Source: Candidatus Amesbacteria bacterium GW2011_GWC1_47_15 (GTDB lineage Bacteria > Patescibacteriota > Microgenomatia > CAZETR01 > Amesbacteraceae). From it: a stretch of DNA of 38,516 nt. Position numbers and translations under genes: made by a program. Below the pieces are notes generated by a model that saw nothing but the letters and a program-made list of their open reading frames with translations, was not told where the DNA came from and ran no database searches. Every line of letters starts with the position of its first letter. Within the stretch, counting starts at the first letter, position 1. Below are positions 117-34,873 of the stretch, one piece after another. Location of the stretch: assembly GCA_001001375.1 (NCBI GenBank), contig LCNU01000006.1:1-38516 (forward strand). Reading direction: 5' to 3'.

Positions 117-815
117 TTAAACGCGGGGGAGGGAAATGTCCTCCGTGAGATAAAACAAAGTTTCTTCCCCGGAAGCAGCACAGCGCATGACCTGATGTGA
201 ATTGGGAGTGAAGGTCGTGTTTTTTGAGATCAATTGTAAAGCTTGCGTGACAGGGGTCCAGAAATGTTCACCGAATCCGTTGGCCGGTTCCAAGGTACCT
301 GTTGGATCCTGTGCGCGGCAAACATGATACAGGGTATCTTCGAAAATTTGTTCAACGGGGAACCGGCGAATTTTACGGATGATGCCTGACAGCGAAAACC
401 GGGCAGACAGGCCTGTTTCCTCCAGCAGTTTGCGTGCAGCTGCCGCTTCTACGGCTTCCCCCGGGAGAAGTTTCCCGGAGATGACCTCGATATCTCCCAA
501 ATACGGCTGGCGGGCACGTTTCTGTAAAAGCACATTTCCCCCGTGAAACAAATAGCAAAGGACGGATATTTTGAAGGTCTCCCGGGCGGTGCCGGAAATG
601 TCCAGATACTGAATCAGTTTTTTGCCGTCGTCCGTCAGACTGTACCAAGTGTCCGTTTTGGAGACAACACCCTTTTCCTGAAGGAATTTGAGGTGATATT
701 TGTACAGATCGTTATCAATATCCTCCGGTCGGGCTTCGGAGTAAGTCAGTTGAGGTTTCCTGATAAAGGCGGAAAGAATCCTGTACTGAACGAAACTCAA
801 ATCCCGGTAGTCCAT
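117..815 (-). CDS. Winged-helix domain fused to a Nudix domain
   Basis: ORF 232 aa; wHTH-like N-terminus (YKYHLKFLQEKGVVSKTDTWYSLTDDGKKL), Nudix-like box GKLLPGEAVEAAAARKLLEETGL. Confidence 0.75.
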   Translation of the reverse strand: MDYRDLSFVQYRILSAFIRKPQLTYSEARPEDIDNDLYKYHLKFLQEKGVVSKTDTWYSLTDDGKKLIQYLDISGTARETFKISVLCYLFHGGNVLLQKRARQPYLGDIEVISGKLLPGEAVEAAAARKLLEETGLSARFSLSGIIRKIRRFPVEQIFEDTLYHVCRAQDPTGTLEPANGFGEHFWTPVTQALQLISKNTTFTPNSHQVMRCAASGEETLFYLTEDISLPRV

Positions 816-27071: not shown

Positions 27072-27479
27072 ATGCTGGAATCAGATATAATGATAAAAGA
27101 GGAAAATCCATTCATTGAAGAAGTGACCAAGATCCCGCCCAAACCTCTTTATGGTTTAAGCGAAGAGCAGTGGGGTATGCTGGCAGGAAAATACGGAGCA
27201 GAAGAATTTACGAAGATTGTGGAAAATTTGTTAAACCATCCTCGTGAATATAAAAAAGCAAACGATCAATATAGAAACAGAAGGGTCATAAAGGTATTGT
27301 TTCCCCATACAATTTCGCCGTCGGGAAAAGATACCACTATGTATCAATTGGTCAGTAAAGATTTAGCCGGATTATTTTTTGATGCGGTTAAAAATAAGTT
27401 AACTGATTCAGGTGAATGGGATAAATTCCAGGAAGAGCAGCGTCACGGAGACAGGGGTATAAGAAGACGTTCAGTCTGA
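27072..27479 (+). CDS. Hypothetical protein (MLESDIMIKEENPFIEEV...)
   Basis: ORF; start chosen by proximity to the -10 box, shorter than the listed 27009 start. Confidence 0.55.
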   Translation: MLESDIMIKEENPFIEEVTKIPPKPLYGLSEEQWGMLAGKYGAEEFTKIVENLLNHPREYKKANDQYRNRRVIKVLFPHTISPSGKDTTMYQLVSKDLAGLFFDAVKNKLTDSGEWDKFQEEQRHGDRGIRRRSV

Positions 27480-29459
27480 TTTATTGCGAAGTTTTTCCAA
27501 TTTGGAACGAATAGGTCTAATATCTGCGGACGAAAGTTGTATTTGATCCGAATGGAATGTGAGGCGCAAGGTCAGGCGGTGCTGATATTTGTCTACCGCT
27601 TCAATTTTTTGAATCAAGGGACTGAGACTGCTGATTTTGTTTTCCAGGGAGGAGTAGTTGACAACATTATCAAAATTAATGTCTTCGATTATGGGTTGGA
27701 ATTTGGAAATAATGCGATACGGATTGGGATTTATTGTCGGCAGGGACAAAATAAGTTCCAAATCCAGATCTGCATAATACACAGGGAAATTATCCGTAAG
27801 CACCGGTTCGACCTGACCTAAAACGCCTATCCGGGTTCTGGCATGCATAATAACTGCGCAATGTGCCAGGCGCAGGCTGGGATGCCCGGATTCGGGAAGG
27901 AAAATCACAGTCAATCCCAATCCGAAAAATAACTTTTCTATTAATCCCTTGATATAGAAGTAGTCCATGGGTTTGGGATCGGTATTCCATGCGGGAGGCA
28001 GGTCCATACCTGAGATGACCAAACCCGCTGCTAAAGATTCCCGGTAAATATTGCCGGTATTGAAAAAAGTTTTTCCGATTTCGAACAAGGCGACGCGCGG
28101 CTGACGCGCGTGAAGATTTTTTACAGCTGACTCTACCAGATTAGGGAGAAGCGTCGGGCGCAGTACGTTTATTTGGGGATCGATTGAGTTTTCCAACTCC
28201 ACATGCCGGGGATAATATCCATGCAGGGAATACTGTGGCAGGGATTCCCGATGCAGCATTGGGAAACTGATGATTTCGTTTACGCCCATTGAGGAAAATA
28301 AATCCCTCACTTTTTCCTGGATGGAATAGGAGGGATAGGTAGAAAGCGCGGGAGTCTCACCAGATAACGGAACAGAAGGTATTTTATCGTAACCGTGAAT
28401 GCGCAGGACTTCCTCAACGACATCGGCAGAACCGACTATGTCGGTACGAATAGTGGGTATGGAAATATTCAGCTTCCCCGCTTTATGCGGACCGATTTTA
28501 AATTCCAGTCTGTTGAGGATATCAGTAACCTTTTCGAGTTTGATTTCTATTCCGCCCAGGCCGGAAATTTGTGAAAGATCGAACACCAGGTTTTTGGGTT
28601 TTTCCGGATGCGGGTAGTACTCGCTGACGCGACTTAATATTTCAGCATCTGCCAAATCCTTAAGTAAATATAACGCGCGCTCAAGCGCAAACCGGACCTG
28701 ACCGGGATCCAGAAGTTTTTCGTGACGGACACTACTGTGGGTATATATTTTCAGGCGGTGTGAACTGTGTCGTGAATTGGCCTGGTCATAGACTGCTGAT
28801 TCCAGAAGTATTTCCGAGGTATTTTCCGTCACCCTGGAGAATCGACCGCCGATCATCGTCAAAGCCTGAGCCTGCTCATTATCGGAAATTACCAGATCTT
28901 CGGGAGAGAGGCGGACCGTCAAACCCTGCTGAATAGTGTTGAATTCTTCATTTTCCTGACCACGGCGAAGGATCAATTTGCCGCCGGATATTCGATGGAA
29001 ATCAAAAGAATGCAATGGCTGGCCGGTTTCGATCATGACAAAATTAGTGATATCCACCACATTATTTATGGAGGGAATTTCCCATGAAGCCAGTTTTTTG
29101 ATGAGCCAGCCGGGGGAAGGGCCGACGCGGACTTTCAGCCGGAGGGCGGTATATCTGTGTACCAGTTTTCCGGCGGATGCGTTTACTTCCAAATGTGGAG
29201 ATTTCGGGTCAACTCCCGGCAGGGGGAATATCGGGGGTAACTTGAGCTTCCGGTCGAATGCGGCTGATACTTCCCTGGCGACACCAATCAGTCCGAACAT
29301 GTCCGATCTGTTTCCGCGTAGTTCCAGATCGATAACGGTGTCCGTGCCTATACGTTTTATTTTATCCAGCATATGGCCGATCATTGTCAACCTGTCGGTC
29401 AAATCTTTTGTTTCCGGCAGATCGACATACTCAGCCAGCCAGTCCAGGGGAACGATCAT
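27471..29459 (-). CDS. pheT: Phenylalanyl-tRNA synthetase beta subunit, without the N-terminal EMAP-type tRNA-binding insert
   Basis: MIVPLDWLAEYVDL..VIDLELRGNRSDMFGLIGVAREVSAAF; VLRIHGYDKIPS; C-terminal FDX-ACB-like end. Confidence 0.93.
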   Translation of the reverse strand: MIVPLDWLAEYVDLPETKDLTDRLTMIGHMLDKIKRIGTDTVIDLELRGNRSDMFGLIGVAREVSAAFDRKLKLPPIFPLPGVDPKSPHLEVNASAGKLVHRYTALRLKVRVGPSPGWLIKKLASWEIPSINNVVDITNFVMIETGQPLHSFDFHRISGGKLILRRGQENEEFNTIQQGLTVRLSPEDLVISDNEQAQALTMIGGRFSRVTENTSEILLESAVYDQANSRHSSHRLKIYTHSSVRHEKLLDPGQVRFALERALYLLKDLADAEILSRVSEYYPHPEKPKNLVFDLSQISGLGGIEIKLEKVTDILNRLEFKIGPHKAGKLNISIPTIRTDIVGSADVVEEVLRIHGYDKIPSVPLSGETPALSTYPSYSIQEKVRDLFSSMGVNEIISFPMLHRESLPQYSLHGYYPRHVELENSIDPQINVLRPTLLPNLVESAVKNLHARQPRVALFEIGKTFFNTGNIYRESLAAGLVISGMDLPPAWNTDPKPMDYFYIKGLIEKLFFGLGLTVIFLPESGHPSLRLAHCAVIMHARTRIGVLGQVEPVLTDNFPVYYADLDLELILSLPTINPNPYRIISKFQPIIEDINFDNVVNYSSLENKISSLSPLIQKIEAVDKYQHRLTLRLTFHSDQIQLSSADIRPIRSKLEKLRNKSD

Positions 29460-30472
29460 ATATAAGCCAGATTGCCGTTAAATAATGCGCGGATGTCGTT
29501 TATTCCGTAACGAGTCATGGCTATCCGGTCCAAACCCATTCCCCAGGCAAACCCAGTGAACTTTAACGGATCCAGCTTAACCATTTCCAGCATCGATGGG
29601 TGGATCATTCCGGCACCCAGAATTTCGATCCATCCCCGGTATTTACACACCATACAGCCTTTGAAATTGCAAAAGGGACAGCTGATATCCATACCCACGC
29701 CCGGTTCTACTTCCGGATAATATTTACAGCGAAAGCGGGATTTGGCAGAAGAGCCGTAAAATCCCGTAACAAAAGTTTCCAGCGTATGTTTGAGGTTGGC
29801 CAGAGTAATCCCCTGCCCTACAGCCAATCCCTGATACTGAGTAAACATAGGCGTATTTGAAGCGTTGGCGTTTTCATTGCGGTACGCTTTACCGGGGAAG
29901 ACGAAACGGTAAGGCGGCCGGTGCACGGCCAGAATCCTGGCTTCGACTGAAGAAGTATGCGTCCGCAGCAGATATTCCGGTTCTTTGACATAAAGTGTGT
30001 CCTGCAGGTCCCGGGCAGGATGATCGGGGGGCAGGTTTAGCCGTGTGTAGTTGAATTCTTCCGTTTCCAGTTCCGGTCCGTCGGCGACACTGAAGCCCAA
30101 ACCGGTAAATATGGCATTTATTTCCCGGGCGACGACAGTATTGGGGTGAAGGTGGCCGACAGGATGAGGGAAACCTGGAAGAGTAACATCGATTTCACTG
30201 CCTGAAGTGGCTGGTCCGCCGGCCGGTATTCCGCTTATGCCTACGTTTTTAGAATTAAACGCATCTGATATTGCAGCTTTAACATCGTTGAAAAGCCGGC
30301 CGATATCGACCCGTTGTTCCCGGTCCAATTTTTTAAATTCCCCGGCGATTTGGTTTAAAACTCCCTTTTTACCCAGGTAATGGGTACGCAGGCGGTCCAA
30401 TTCTTCCCTCCCCTCGGAGGAGAGAATTTGGGCCAGAGCCTCGTTTTTTATATTCTGCAGTTTTTGATGCAT
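29456..30472 (-). CDS. pheS: Phenylalanyl-tRNA synthetase alpha subunit
   Basis: MHQKLQNIKNEALAQI..; LRTHTSSVEAR; FPGKAYRNENANASNTPMFTQYQGLAV; GFAWGMGLDRIAMTRYGINDIR. Confidence 0.96.
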   Translation of the reverse strand: MHQKLQNIKNEALAQILSSEGREELDRLRTHYLGKKGVLNQIAGEFKKLDREQRVDIGRLFNDVKAAISDAFNSKNVGISGIPAGGPATSGSEIDVTLPGFPHPVGHLHPNTVVAREINAIFTGLGFSVADGPELETEEFNYTRLNLPPDHPARDLQDTLYVKEPEYLLRTHTSSVEARILAVHRPPYRFVFPGKAYRNENANASNTPMFTQYQGLAVGQGITLANLKHTLETFVTGFYGSSAKSRFRCKYYPEVEPGVGMDISCPFCNFKGCMVCKYRGWIEILGAGMIHPSMLEMVKLDPLKFTGFAWGMGLDRIAMTRYGINDIRALFNGNLAYI

Positions 30473-30505
30473 ATATTTTGATTTTATGTCAGCAGGCGGA
30501 TTAAT

Positions 30506-30534
30506 GGAATCCCGGCGACGCCTACCGGGATTCC
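30506..30534. repeat. REP-like perfect palindrome GGAATCCCGG-N9-CCGGGATTCC
   Basis: 10-bp perfect stem between an 85-aa ORF and pheS. Confidence 0.7.
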
Positions 30535-30540
30535 TGGTCA

Positions 30541-30798
30541 TCAACGACGCCCCCTGTAAGGAATCCTACCTTCCCTGACTCCCCGGACAATGTCGATCAA
30601 ATTCCGGGCAATTTCCACTATCCCCGGTGCTGACCGGCGCAACTCTTTAAGGTATTGGTCTTCGAGCTGATCCAGATCCTCCGGCAAGGTGGGTAACGGC
30701 AGTAGCCGGGGATTGGTGTACCAATCCTCATGATTCATATTGGAAATCACCATCTGGTGATATGAACGCAGACGATTCATGGTGGTACGTTTGGTCAT
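30541..30798 (-). CDS. Hypothetical 85-aa protein, first gene after the attenuator
   Basis: ORF preceded by strong Shine-Dalgarno AAAGGAGGTGA. Confidence 0.75.
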   Translation of the reverse strand: MTKRTTMNRLRSYHQMVISNMNHEDWYTNPRLLPLPTLPEDLDQLEDQYLKELRRSAPGIVEIARNLIDIVRGVREGRIPYRGRR

Positions 30799-30820
30799 AA
30801 ATATTCACCTCCTTTCCACT

Positions 30821-30843
30821 AAAAAACCCCGCGCTTGCGGGGT
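30821..30843 (-). terminator. Attenuator terminator ACCCCGC-AAGC-GCGGGGT-TTTTT
   Basis: 7-bp GC-rich stem, tetraloop, T-run on minus strand between the leader peptide and the pheST operon. Confidence 0.88.
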
Positions 30844-30876
30844 GGATGTATATAACGCGTTACAACCGCCCCGCCT

Positions 30877-30924
30877 CTACAGGATAAAAAAGAAGGCAGA
30901 AAAGGCTTTCTTTACGGTTGTCAT
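30877..30924 (-). CDS. Phe-rich leader peptide MTTVKKAFSAFFFIL* (PheM-like)
   Basis: ATG ACA ACC GTA AAG AAA GCC TTT TCT GCC TTC TTT TTT ATC CTG TAG; 4 Phe in 15 residues, followed by an attenuator. Confidence 0.8.
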   Translation of the reverse strand: MTTVKKAFSAFFFIL

Positions 30925-30933
30925 ATTGGAAGT

Positions 30934-30962
30934 ATTATATGACTGTGAATAATTTTAGTCAA
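30934..30962 (-). promoter_or_regulatory. Promoter TTGACT-17-TATAAT for the leader/pheST operon
   Basis: Near-consensus sigma70 promoter, -10 ends 9 nt from the leader peptide ATG. Confidence 0.85.
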
Positions 30963-30984
30963 ATTACAAAGTAGAGTTGGGAGA

Positions 30985-31329
30985 TTATATTTTGAGGCCG
31001 GAGGAGCGGACGACTTCTTTGAAAGCTTCAGGTTGGCTGGTGGCCAACTCGGAAAGAATTTTGCGGTCCAGTTCAATATTTGATTTTTTTAAGGCGGAGA
31101 TAAACACTGAATACTTTACGCCCAGAGGTGTGAGACCGGAATTGATACGGGTAATCCAGGTGCGGCGCAGATCCCGGCGGCGAAGCCGGCGGCCGGCAAA
31201 AGCATATTGACCGGCGTGCAGGACCGCCTCATTTGCGACTTTAAACAGCCGGGATTTGGTCATGCGATATCCGCGGGCGAGTTTCAGGATCTTTTGATGT
31301 TGGGCTTTACGGGGGGATTTTACGCGCAT
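30985..31329 (-). CDS. rplT: 50S ribosomal protein bL20
   Basis: MRVKSPRKAQHQKILKLARGYRMTKSRLFKVANEAVLHAGQYAFAGRRLRRRDLRRTWITRIN. Confidence 0.96.
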   Translation of the reverse strand: MRVKSPRKAQHQKILKLARGYRMTKSRLFKVANEAVLHAGQYAFAGRRLRRRDLRRTWITRINSGLTPLGVKYSVFISALKKSNIELDRKILSELATSQPEAFKEVVRSSGLKI

Positions 31330-31339
31330 ATTGAAAGTT

Positions 31340-31371
31340 GATTAAGTGATAAAGAGATTAAGTGATTAAGT
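31340..31371. repeat. Octad array GATTAAGT GATAAAGA GATTAAGT GATTAAGT
   Basis: Direct reading between rpmI and rplT. Confidence 0.75.
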
Positions 31372-31569
31372 TTAGGCTTGGGCAAGGAGTCGTTTGACCC
31401 TGCGGGCCATTTTACCAGATACAACGCGTTTTTTCCCATAACCGCGCATCTGGGCTGCGGATTTCTTACGCCGTAAATGCCTACCGAAGGCCACGCCGCG
31501 CATCACCTTGCCGGTGCCGGTGATTTTAAACCGGCGGGAGACTGATTTTCTGGATTTTACTTTTGACAT
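31372..31569 (-). CDS. rpmI: 50S ribosomal protein bL35
   Basis: SRRFKITGTGKVMRGVAFGRHLRRKKSAAQMR. Confidence 0.92.
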   Translation of the reverse strand: MSKVKSRKSVSRRFKITGTGKVMRGVAFGRHLRRKKSAAQMRGYGKKRVVSGKMARRVKRLLAQA

Positions 31570-31571
31570 AT

Positions 31572-32087
31572 TTATTTTTTAACCGGCGATAATGTGGCCG
31601 TGAACTGGCGGCCGATCCACTTGCCGTCCTGATCTATTTGGGAAATGTCTGACAATGCAGATACTGCCCTGGCCATCATTTGAGGCCCGAATTCCTTATG
31701 ACCCAACTGACGCCCAACAAACCGTACGGTAACCCGGAGTTTGTGCCCTTCGGTCAGGAATTCCTTCCCCCTGTCCAGTTTTACCTGCAGGTCGTTTTCG
31801 GCCATAAAGGGAGTCAATCTTATTTCTTTCAAGTCGACCTTTTTGGCTGCCGCTTTGGCGGCTTGTTCCCTTTTGGCTATCTGATAAAGAAATTTTTTGT
31901 AGTCGATCAGTTTAACTACCGGCGGATCCGCATTCGGGGCGATCTCCACCGCATCCAACTGATCTTTGCTGGCTTGGGAAAGTGCTTCTTCCTTGGAGAC
32001 GATCCCGATCTGGGTGCCGTCTTCGCGTAACAACCGGACTTGCTTTGCCTGTATTTGGTGGTTGATGCGGTAGAAAGGATTACTCAC
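31572..32087 (-). CDS. infC: Translation initiation factor IF-3 (GTG start)
   Basis: YRINHQIQAKQVRLLREDGTQIGIVSKEEAL; KEIRLTPFMAENDLQVKL; VTVRFVGRQLGHKEFG. Confidence 0.96.
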   Translation of the reverse strand: MSNPFYRINHQIQAKQVRLLREDGTQIGIVSKEEALSQASKDQLDAVEIAPNADPPVVKLIDYKKFLYQIAKREQAAKAAAKKVDLKEIRLTPFMAENDLQVKLDRGKEFLTEGHKLRVTVRFVGRQLGHKEFGPQMMARAVSALSDISQIDQDGKWIGRQFTATLSPVKK

Positions 32088-32098
32088 TAGGTTGCAAG

Positions 32099-32127
32099 AT
32101 TATATCAATTATTAGACCGGGTAGCAA
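32099..32127 (-). promoter_or_regulatory. infC promoter TTGCTA-17-TATAAT with TGn extended -10
   Basis: Direct reading at the 3' end of thrS. Confidence 0.65.
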
Positions 32128-33853
32128 TTTGCTGTTGTATTGATTCTATAAAATTTTCAATCGGGACAGATTCAGATTTATTGGTTCCCCGTCTGCGAAC
32201 GGAAATGGAATTATCTGCTGTTTCCCTGTTACCGACTACCAAAATATACGGAACTTTTTGCAATTGCGCGTCCCGGACGCGGGCGTTTAAAGGCTCGTTG
32301 CGCGAGTCCAGTTCCGACCGGATGTTTTGTCCGGATAGTTGCTCATTTACTTTTTGAGCGTAAGCCAAATGTTTGTCCGAGATAGGCAGGACTACAGCCT
32401 GAACCGGGGACAGCCAGACCGGAAAGGCACCGGCAAAGTGCTCTATCAGGAAGCCGATAAAACGCTCACTGGAACCCAAGGGAGCCCGATGCTGGACAAC
32501 AACAAATTCTTCCCGCCCTGATTTATTCGTAAATTTCAGATCGAACCGCCTGGGCATAAACAAGTCTATCTGGTTGGTGGAAATCCCGTATTCCGTGCCG
32601 ATAACTGATTTAATCTTGAAATCCATTTTGGGTCCGTAGTGAGCAGCGCCCTCGTTTTGGACTTCATACTTGACACCGGATTTGTCTAAAGCGAGCCGGG
32701 AGAGAGCTTCGGATTTTTGCCACAATTCTTCTTCGCCGTGATACTTATCTTTTTTTTGCGGGTCTCTCAAGCAAAGTGCGATATAGTAATCTTTTAAGCC
32801 CAGTGTGTCATAGTAGTACCGGTGCAGTTTTATTATTTCCACAAACTCATCTATCGCCTGTTCTTCGGAGCAGTAGACATGCGCATCATTTTGTACAAAC
32901 AGCCTGGGTCGTAATATTCCATTTAATGCCCCTGCGTTTTCATAACGGGCCACTGTACCATATTCGGCCAGCCTTAAAGGCAGTTCCCGGTAGCTTCTGG
33001 TCCTGGATTTGTAAATCATGTGGTGAAACGGGCAATTCATAGGTTTGATGAAGTATTGTTCCTCCTTGTTTTCTCCGGGAACTTCGACCTTATACATCTC
33101 GTCTTCGAAATACGGGACGTGGCCGGAAGTTACGAATAATTCACGCTTGGTTAAAAAAGGAGTACTTACCCTCTGGTAACCCCATTTCTTTTCCGTTTCC
33201 CTACCCCATTTTTCCAATTCATCTTTTATAATCGTACCTTTGGGGAGCCACAACGGCAGACCGGGGCCGACTTCCGGAGCAAATATAAAAATCTCCAAAT
33301 CTTTGCCGAGTTTGCGGTGATCCCGTTTTTTGGCTTCCTCAAGTTGAAACAGGTGATTTTCCAACTCTTTTTGTGTCGGCCAGGCGGTCCCATAAATGCG
33401 TGTCAGCATCTTGTTTTTCTCATCCCCACGCCAATAAGCACCTGCAACGGACTGGAGCTTGAAATGCTTGAGTTCCTTATCCGGGTGTTCCACATGACCG
33501 CCACGGCATAAATCGCTGAATTTGTCACTTTCGTAGATGGTTATTGGTTGGTTGCCACCCGCCAATTCATTAATCATTTCAAGTTTGTAAGGATTGTCCT
33601 TGAAAATTTCCCGGGCTTTTTCGGAAGAAATTTCCCTGCGATCAAAACCTTTCCAACCCGGGGTAATGTCGTGCATTTTGGCTTCAATTCTGGATAAGTC
33701 ATCATCGGATATTTTGGATTTGCCAAAGTCGATATCGTAATAAAAGCCGTTTTCTATTGCCGGGCCGAGAGTCAGCAGTGCGTGCGGATATAAGTCCATG
33801 ACTGCGGCGGCCAAAAGATGAGCACAAGAGTGATTTAAATGATCAAGATTCAT
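32105..33853 (-). CDS. thrS: Threonyl-tRNA synthetase without N-terminal TGS domain
   Basis: Starts MNLDHLNHSCAHLLAAAV; CRGGHVEHPDKELKHFKLQSVAGAYWRGD; MNCPFHHMIYKS. Confidence 0.96.
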   Translation of the reverse strand: MNLDHLNHSCAHLLAAAVMDLYPHALLTLGPAIENGFYYDIDFGKSKISDDDLSRIEAKMHDITPGWKGFDRREISSEKAREIFKDNPYKLEMINELAGGNQPITIYESDKFSDLCRGGHVEHPDKELKHFKLQSVAGAYWRGDEKNKMLTRIYGTAWPTQKELENHLFQLEEAKKRDHRKLGKDLEIFIFAPEVGPGLPLWLPKGTIIKDELEKWGRETEKKWGYQRVSTPFLTKRELFVTSGHVPYFEDEMYKVEVPGENKEEQYFIKPMNCPFHHMIYKSRTRSYRELPLRLAEYGTVARYENAGALNGILRPRLFVQNDAHVYCSEEQAIDEFVEIIKLHRYYYDTLGLKDYYIALCLRDPQKKDKYHGEEELWQKSEALSRLALDKSGVKYEVQNEGAAHYGPKMDFKIKSVIGTEYGISTNQIDLFMPRRFDLKFTNKSGREEFVVVQHRAPLGSSERFIGFLIEHFAGAFPVWLSPVQAVVLPISDKHLAYAQKVNEQLSGQNIRSELDSRNEPLNARVRDAQLQKVPYILVVGNRETADNSISVRRRGTNKSESVPIENFIESIQQQIATRSNN

Positions 33854-33861
33854 ATAAATAA

Positions 33862-33957
33862 CCACCTCTTCACTAGTCCCAGGGTTCCAACTAGCTACTT
33901 GGGTGGCTTAATTTAAAGTTCCGGCTCAGGGTTGGTGAGTACCCGTCACTGCCGAAA
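33862..33957 (-). promoter_or_regulatory. Structured thrS 5' leader: distal hairpin plus a stem sequestering the ribosome-binding site
   Basis: Minus strand TTTCGGC..GGGT-loop-ACCC..GCCGGAA and CCACC..CTAGT-loop-ACTAG..GGTGG (SD GAGGTGG). Confidence 0.5.
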
Positions 33958-33970
33958 TAAGTTTGAATAT

Positions 33971-34000
33971 ATTATACGACCAGAGATTTGAGTAAATCAA
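33971..34000 (-). promoter_or_regulatory. thrS promoter TTGATT-18-TATAAT (overlaps nfo 3' end)
   Basis: Direct reading. Confidence 0.6.
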
Positions 34001-34796
34001 TATCCTGCTTTCTGGGACCGGAGTTGTTTTCACCAGGCACTTCCGTAATAAAGGGGATATTTTGCAGTCTGGGATCTTTTGCGAAATTCTTCAGGTTTTC
34101 CAGTCCGATTTTACCTTCGCCTAAATTTTCATGACGGTCATGGCGGGAGTTGAACTCGGATTTCGAGTCGTTTAAATGAATAAGCGTCAAATGCTTCAGA
34201 CCGATAGCCCGATCGAATTTATCCAGAATCTGATCCAAGAGGTAACCGGATGCGAAGGCATGCTGGGTATCCAAACAAACACCGATTTTTGACCTGTCCC
34301 CAACCCGGCTGATGATCTGACTCAGTTCCTTGAGGTCATCGCTCTCAGTCCCCGCCTGACCGGCGGCATTTTCCAGAATAAGCCGGATACCTTTGGGACT
34401 GCTGTCCAGAATGTAGTTTATAGCTACGACAATTTGATCAACTACATCGGCAAAACCCCTGCCTTTATGACTGCCGATATGAATAATAGTTCCGACTGAA
34501 TTTATTTGTCCGGCAAAGCGCTGGTAAAAAATGAGTGAATCAAGACTGGCTGTGAGATTAGTTTTGCTTTCTGAGGCGAGATTGACCAAATAAGCACCGT
34601 GCAGGAAATGGGGACCTATACCGTGTTTTGCCTTCTTTTCCAAATACTTCACTATTTCACCTCCCGAAATTTCGCGGGTTTCCAGGGATCGGGGAGATGA
34701 AGCGAAGGTCATGAGACAATTGCCGCCAATTGTGACGATCCTATCGATACATTTATCGAATCCTCCGGCTATGGAAACATTACCGCCCAGGTACAT
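33972..34796 (-). CDS. nfo: Endonuclease IV (AP endonuclease)
   Basis: MYLGGNVSIAGGFDKCIDR; IHIGSHKG; LILENAAGQ; ICLDTQHAFASGY-type motif; THEVPG-like FITEVPGE. Start at 34796 by alignment to the family N-terminus. Confidence 0.92.
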   Translation of the reverse strand: MYLGGNVSIAGGFDKCIDRIVTIGGNCLMTFASSPRSLETREISGGEIVKYLEKKAKHGIGPHFLHGAYLVNLASESKTNLTASLDSLIFYQRFAGQINSVGTIIHIGSHKGRGFADVVDQIVVAINYILDSSPKGIRLILENAAGQAGTESDDLKELSQIISRVGDRSKIGVCLDTQHAFASGYLLDQILDKFDRAIGLKHLTLIHLNDSKSEFNSRHDRHENLGEGKIGLENLKNFAKDPRLQNIPFITEVPGENNSGPRKQDIDLLKSLVV

Positions 34797-34799
34797 AAG

Positions 34800-34873
34800 T
34801 GGACCCGAGAGGAGTCGAACCTCTGACCTCGTCGATGTCAACGACGCGCTCTAACCAACTGAGCTACGAGTCC
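34800..34873 (-). tRNA. tRNA-Val (anticodon GAC), CCA not encoded
   Basis: GGACTCGTAGCTCAGTTGGTTAGAGCGCGTCGTTGACATCGACGAGGTCAGAGGTTCGACTCCTCTCGGGTCCA; cloverleaf with anticodon loop TTGACAT. Confidence 0.95.

Follow-up and report, generated by a model that had tools for sequence, protein, structure and literature searches.

Does the spacer between rplT and the pheS-pheT operon of Candidatus Amesbacteria bacterium GW2011_GWC1_47_15 carry a phenylalanine-sensing attenuator like that of E. coli pheM, and if so, is it an old element kept in place or one that arose anew? We addressed this question in a 38,516-nucleotide stretch of contig LCNU01000006.1, referred to here as the window, and in related loci, which carry L numbers (family-level groups carry f numbers).

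The window has an E. coli-like gene order with one additional gene

On the minus strand, Pfam matches give the order thrS-infC-rpmI-rplT-leader-(orf85)-pheS-pheT, which is that of E. coli except for orf85. The gene upstream of the leader is rplT, encoding L20 (30985..31329, minus strand). The operon itself comprises pheS (29459..30541, minus strand) and pheT (27471..29459, minus strand; B3/4, B5 and CLM domains), and Pfam also confirms L35, IF3, ThrRS, PheS and L20. The E. coli-like arrangement proposed in the initial annotation is therefore correct, except that the attenuator is not immediately 5' of pheS because orf85 intervenes.

The first gene after the attenuator is orf85 (30541..30798, minus strand; 85 aa), and it is preceded by the Shine-Dalgarno sequence AGGAGGTGA (AGGAGG; 30805..30813, minus strand). 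Its product has no family match in Pfam, PHROG or NCBIfam and no homologue among 265 fetched loci, and its G+C content by codon position resembles that of adjacent genes. The in-frame pheS ATG at 30541 overlaps the orf85 stop codon. A second pheS ATG lies at 30472, where homologue alignments begin, with a TAAAAT at 30486-30481, 8 nt upstream.

In a comparison with L003, L004, L005 and L021 among others, the window PheS shares 64-67% identity with three genomes and 42-47% with the rest of its own family. This indicates two PheS lineages, perhaps through gene transfer. The genome measures 0.91 Mb, and L9 and L30 were not found in it at its completeness of 88%. CPR bacteria lack L30, and the small genome and the L9 and L30 result are consistent with the CPR assignment of the window genome.

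The rplT-orf85 spacer contains the parts of a probable Phe leader attenuator

Upstream of the leader, a -35 element TTGACT (30957..30962, minus strand) lies 17 nt from a -10 element TATAAT (30934..30939, minus strand). Together they match 11 of 12 consensus positions and form the top promoter-like site between 27000 and 35000. The -10 element is 9 nt 5' of the leader ATG at 30924, and the predicted transcription start at ~30927 is ~3 nt before that ATG, so the transcript would be almost leaderless. The leader ORF (30877..30924, minus strand) encodes MTTVKKAFSAFFFIL followed by a stop codon. It has four Phe residues in 15 codons (codons 8, 11, 12 and 13) and lies upstream of pheS-pheT.

Four pairing regions lie within and after the ORF, all on the minus strand. 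Region 1, ACAACCG (30915..30921), is a perfect complement of CGGTTGT at 30868-30862 and would pair with it if no ribosome is present. Region 2, GCGGGGCGGTTGT (30862..30874), consists of GCGGGG and CGGTTGT and begins 2 nt 3' of the leader stop codon; its CGGTTGT pairs with region 1, and its GCGGGG (30874-30869) is fully complementary to CCCCGC (30842-30837) in region 3. Region 3, ACCCCGC (30837..30843), is the 5' arm of an intrinsic terminator, and region 4, GCGGGGT plus a T-run (30821..30832), is its 3' arm. The complete terminator, ACCCCGC-AAGC-GCGGGGT (30843-30826) with the T-run ending at 30821, stands between the leader ORF and the structural genes. The promoter and its spacing to the mini-ORF, both complementary pairs and the terminator had all been described in the initial annotation, and each was found as described.

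We asked how often such a set occurs by chance by shuffling the 186-nt rplT-orf85 spacer 20,000 times while preserving dinucleotide frequencies. An ORF with four or more Phe in seven codons appeared in 77 of 20,000 shuffles, and a terminator as good as that of the window in 57 of 20,000. The ORF, the terminator and a 6-nt antiterminator in the right order appeared in none of the 20,000.

An Rfam scan of the window at gathering thresholds returned nothing but a tRNA at 34800-34873, and thus no leader family. Within 30500-34100, the Rfam Phe leader model had no match even at E values up to 5. The T-box model RF00230 had no match in the window at gathering, or at E up to 5 in the same interval. 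A Chlorobi-1 match on the opposite strand scored 21.8 bits against a cut-off of 50 and was taken as chance.

Ribosome position is predicted to select between two folds

If the A of the leader ATG is nt 1, the last Phe codon occupies nt 37-39, the stop codon nt 46-48, region 2 nt 51-56 and region 3 nt 83-88. The footprint of a ribosome whose A site is on the last Phe codon extends to about nt 49. In that case, an antiterminator of -19.4 kcal/mol is predicted for the RNA between nt 50 and the 3' limit of region 3; once the ribosome has moved to the stop codon, just -1 to -3 kcal/mol of antiterminator is left. Folding thus predicts a mutually exclusive antiterminator that depends on ribosome position, with alternative 1:2 and 2:3 folds.

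The terminator hairpin has a predicted energy of -13.9 kcal/mol, and the minimum free energy fold of the ribosome-free leader combines the 1:2 pairing with the terminator (-34.1 kcal/mol). When region 2 is free and the full terminator has been made, the antiterminator and terminator end states are nearly equal in energy (-20.2 and -20.6 kcal/mol). The switch would therefore be kinetic and depend on the antiterminator forming first.

The stall geometry that had been suggested needs revision on one point. A ribosome at the stop codon does mask region 2, but a ribosome stalled at the first Phe codon covers just part of region 1 (nt 4-10). A ribosome on the FFF codons is already past region 1, and this region is therefore not what decides the outcome. 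In our model, region 1 would matter for the ribosome-free state only, and the key geometry would be the placement of region 2, which a ribosome on the last Phe codon leaves just uncovered and a ribosome at the stop codon masks.

From these folds we infer how transcription start, translation, stalling and termination would be coupled in the cell. RNA polymerase would start at ~30927 and a ribosome would start on the almost leaderless AUG. When charged tRNA-Phe is scarce, the ribosome would stop on the Phe codons and, at the last of them, reach ~nt 49. Region 2 (nt 51-56) would then be free to pair with region 3 once that is made, which would block the terminator and allow transcription of orf85, pheS and pheT. 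When Phe is plentiful, the ribosome would reach the stop codon and cover region 2, the 3:4 terminator would form, and transcription would end at ~30821. If no ribosome is present, regions 1 and 2 would pair and the terminator would form too.

Separate Phe-rich mini-ORFs precede pheS in relatives

The order to which the window genome belongs contains 14 genomes, all of one family, and the search was widened to the class. PheS was located in 354 of 374 class genomes, and 141 upstream regions were read. About 26 loci in ten family-level groups (f1, f4, f5, f16, f17, f23, f28, f29, f33 and f44) have a Phe-rich mini-ORF followed by a terminator before pheS among the 374 class genomes. Comparing spacers among relatives, as had been recommended, therefore places a Phe-rich mini-ORF at the same position in about 25 of them; examples are MIILRSANVFFFTSLNAG, MHSNRLSLFFFRF, MKALDFFFYFTFAS, MQKPGKTFWFYFTFA and MSIFTFTGFSFRLI. 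The leader peptides and most stems have diverged too far for a base-by-base alignment. The peptides have Phe arrangements such as FFF, FxFxF and FYF and little else in common.

Phe is specifically enriched at this position. Of the 55 loci in which a terminator follows rplT, 15 contain a mini-ORF with three or more Phe in seven codons, against a mean of 1.1 and a maximum of 4 in 200 shuffles, and none of the 20 amino acids other than Phe is comparably enriched in the mini-ORFs. The geometry is also maintained: across 22 loci, region 2 starts between -12 and +11 nt from the mini-ORF stop codon, with a median of +2. When the model ribosome advances from the last Phe codon to the stop, the antiterminator loses an average of 10.9 kcal/mol versus 3.2 kcal/mol in shuffles (Wilcoxon p 5e-5, with related loci non-independent), and this loss reaches 0.05 or less against shuffles in 17 of 22 relatives. 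The predicted antiterminator is weak in the f17 loci (L085, L086).

The relatives also resemble the window in how the leader would be expressed. Of 24 relatives, 14 (versus 2.6 expected) have a -10 element with at least five of six matches no more than 20 nt from the ATG, and a Shine-Dalgarno match before the mini-ORF was found in 0 of 24; these leaders therefore look leaderless. In L034, L071, L074, L078, L089, L128, L131 and L135, a TTGACA-like element lies upstream of the mini-ORF, within the 3' end of rplT.

A link to PHENYLALANINE extends beyond pheS, since the attenuator of some relatives also precedes a tRNA-Phe or DAHP synthase gene. A tRNA-Phe(GAA) gene (L074:1077-1150) lies between attenuator and pheS in one locus, and in L131 a gene between the Phe attenuator and pheS encodes a DAHP synthase (PF00793, E 1e-25). 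DAHP synthase catalyses the first step of aromatic amino acid synthesis.

Taken with the parts, their geometry and the alternative folds, all of which were computed, as was the Phe-specific enrichment among relatives, we consider it probable (about 0.86) that the window element is a Phe-sensing, ribosome-mediated transcription attenuator. The PheM-like reading of the initial annotation is supported by the enrichment of Phe only, the constant geometry and the Phe-related genes downstream.

In one relative (L035), a Phe leader MTQKPLKFSFFFRN is followed by GGGGAG after its stop codon and by no terminator, and the GGGGAG occupies the expected position of the pheS ribosome site. This locus has perhaps switched to translational control. 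Small ORFs of ~63-115 codons lie between the attenuator or T-box and pheS in the window, L008, L071, L072, L073, L076, L089, L135, L251 and L252. Most have strong ribosome sites and they are mostly unrelated; only those of L089 and L252 are alike (31% identity, E 2e-4).

A possible rplT-tail leader or a T-box occupies the junction in other lineages

Of 115 class members in which L20 adjoins pheS, 57 (group C), or roughly half, have no attenuator. In other class members, mainly of f28, f17 and f1, a terminator lies 19-30 nt after the rplT stop codon, a G-rich region 2 begins no more than a few nt from this codon, and the L20 tail has a Phe 3-5 codons before the stop. These rplT-tail loci form group B (L006, L007, L009, L016, L029, L039, L043-L069), with L20 tails such as KSIFTSLK, SIVAFIK, VSTFKK, AGFTIPK and EVSFTSKK, each directly before the stop codon. 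The window rplT tail, RSSGLKI before the stop codon, has no Phe, like those of other loci with a separate leader.

Phe occurs within the last seven L20 codons in 25 of 26 rplT-tail loci versus 7 of 92 others. The next amino acid after Phe is Thr (p 2e-5), and none comes near Phe. Where a separate mini-ORF is present, a tail Phe is found in 1 of 23 loci. Terminators that follow a Phe-less tail mostly lack region 2 (duplex median -1.5 versus -8.7 kcal/mol, p 7e-5). On an L20 tree built with the tail omitted, independent pairs change in the expected direction 4.7 times and in the opposite direction 0.0 times on average (median p 0.06). Since the rplT-tail idea was formed on the same data, these p-values are descriptive.

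In these loci the separate leader may have given way to the L20 coding tail. We lean, by a small margin of confidence, towards the view that in sister lineages the 3' end of rplT acts as the Phe leader deciding read-through into pheS, and that mini-ORF, rplT tail and T-box are interchangeable and have been swapped repeatedly. If so, the C-terminal residues of a ribosomal protein would be partly shaped by the regulation of the next gene.

A T-box stands before pheS instead of a leader in L125 (~304-659, minus strand of the locus, f40; E 4.6e-9) and in L076 (479-764, f14; E 1.3e-9), both matches scoring below Rfam gathering. L125 had been considered as a leader locus (MDKVRPYFFFRVKT) and was rejected as such, its element being the T-box. 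In L076, a tRNA gene follows the T-box at 793-865, and its anticodon loop CTGAAAA reads GAA (Phe).

Two further features were observed in the class. Family f30 (L094, L133, L140) has a conserved hairpin GGGGAG(C/T)TCATGTAGGGCAGGCGTGAGCTTCCC in a long terminator stem before pheS, with a strong promoter upstream and an AUG-UAG start-stop, and without Phe codons. PheS of L012, L014, L015 and L036 is ~580-600 aa long and carries a fused N-terminal domain resembling the AlaRS/AlaX editing domain (PF01411, E 1.7e-17 in L012).

Alternative readings of the window element

Plain rplT terminators without Phe codons or region 2 are common in the class (L041, L045, L048, L109, L139, L142), so the window could hold an ordinary rplT terminator with a chance ORF before it. 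This is scarcely credible, given that no shuffle reproduced the full set, that the relatives show Phe enrichment together with a stop-linked region 2, and that a strong promoter lies directly upstream of the ORF. A quite improbable reading keeps the switch but changes the signal: since any stall near codons 8-13 would satisfy the fold, and the ORF is both short and leaderless, the element might sense a general slowing of translation, or arrest of an FFF nascent chain, rather than charged tRNA-Phe. Against this stand the peptides of the relatives, which share Phe codons and little else, the identity of the downstream genes (PheRS, tRNA-Phe, DAHP synthase), and the T-boxes that take the leader's place in other lineages.

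The attenuator might instead serve mainly orf85, with pheS-pheT transcribed from an internal leaderless promoter at 30486-30472. The TAAAAT 8 nt upstream of the pheS ATG at 30472 would suit this arrangement, as would the small ORFs with strong Shine-Dalgarno sequences that follow the attenuator in L008, L071, L072, L073, L135, L089 and L251. However, the small ORFs after attenuators are mostly unrelated to one another, and the terminator abuts the pheS start codon in L032, L052, L086, L111 and L114, which leaves no room for a promoter; we regard this reading as unlikely. Under the preferred reading of a Phe-sensing attenuator, the -10-like site at 30486-30481, within the coupled frame, may still let part of pheS expression escape the attenuator.

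The element resembles known attenuators and appears to turn over repeatedly

The window element appears to belong to a known kind, the Phe leader-peptide attenuator, as in E. coli. Both E. coli pheM/pheST (NC_000913.3) and the window have a Phe-rich leader, the order rplT-leader-pheS-pheT, a terminator and a ribosome-position switch. The same script applied to E. coli K-12 pheM places region 2 at +4 nt from the stop codon and gives -16.2 versus -5.4 kcal/mol. Unlike pheM, the window leader has no Shine-Dalgarno sequence and lies ~3 nt from its predicted start, and orf85 precedes pheS. Because no Rfam leader family matched, there is no demonstrable common descent with E. coli pheM.

Synthetase genes are attenuated through cognate codons at trpS and leuS in Actinobacteria and at hisS/hisZ in Firmicutes (PMC1262725; PMC2965389). 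These systems use the same classical principle as the window, with other amino acids and in other phyla. Before the Firmicutes case was described in 2010, no leader-peptide system was known outside Proteobacteria and Actinobacteria (PMC2965389). We found no description of leader peptides in CPR or Patescibacteria in open-access papers. The T-box (RF00230) also attenuates synthetase genes according to tRNA charging and is found at this junction in two of the class's lineages; it is an RNA aptamer and not a translated peptide, whereas the window element is a leader ORF without an RF00230 match.

The initial annotation had left the choice between deep conservation and convergent re-invention. On the L20 tree, mini-ORF attenuators require 16 changes, with at least 12 gains or losses on well-supported branches. 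A sample of ~27 rplT loci and ~80 pheS loci from the phylum's other classes yielded no leader with suitable geometry; Phe-ORF matches there were rejected because their geometry was wrong, and rplT-pheS adjacency is uncommon in the sampled loci. Across this class tree and phylum sample, unbroken presence in the lineages between E. coli and the window was not found. The number of gains and losses, together with the result from the sampled classes, favors repeated gain, loss and replacement. Of the two options, then, the tree and the sampling speak for repeated turnover and against one conserved element.

Implications

Ultra-small bacteria of the kind in the window are poor in amino-acid biosynthesis. 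If our reading is true, classical translation-coupled, amino-acid-sensing attenuation would operate in ultra-small, mostly uncultured bacteria. The class offers a natural series of mini-ORF, ribosomal-protein tail and T-box replacement at one junction, which makes the origin of attenuators directly testable.
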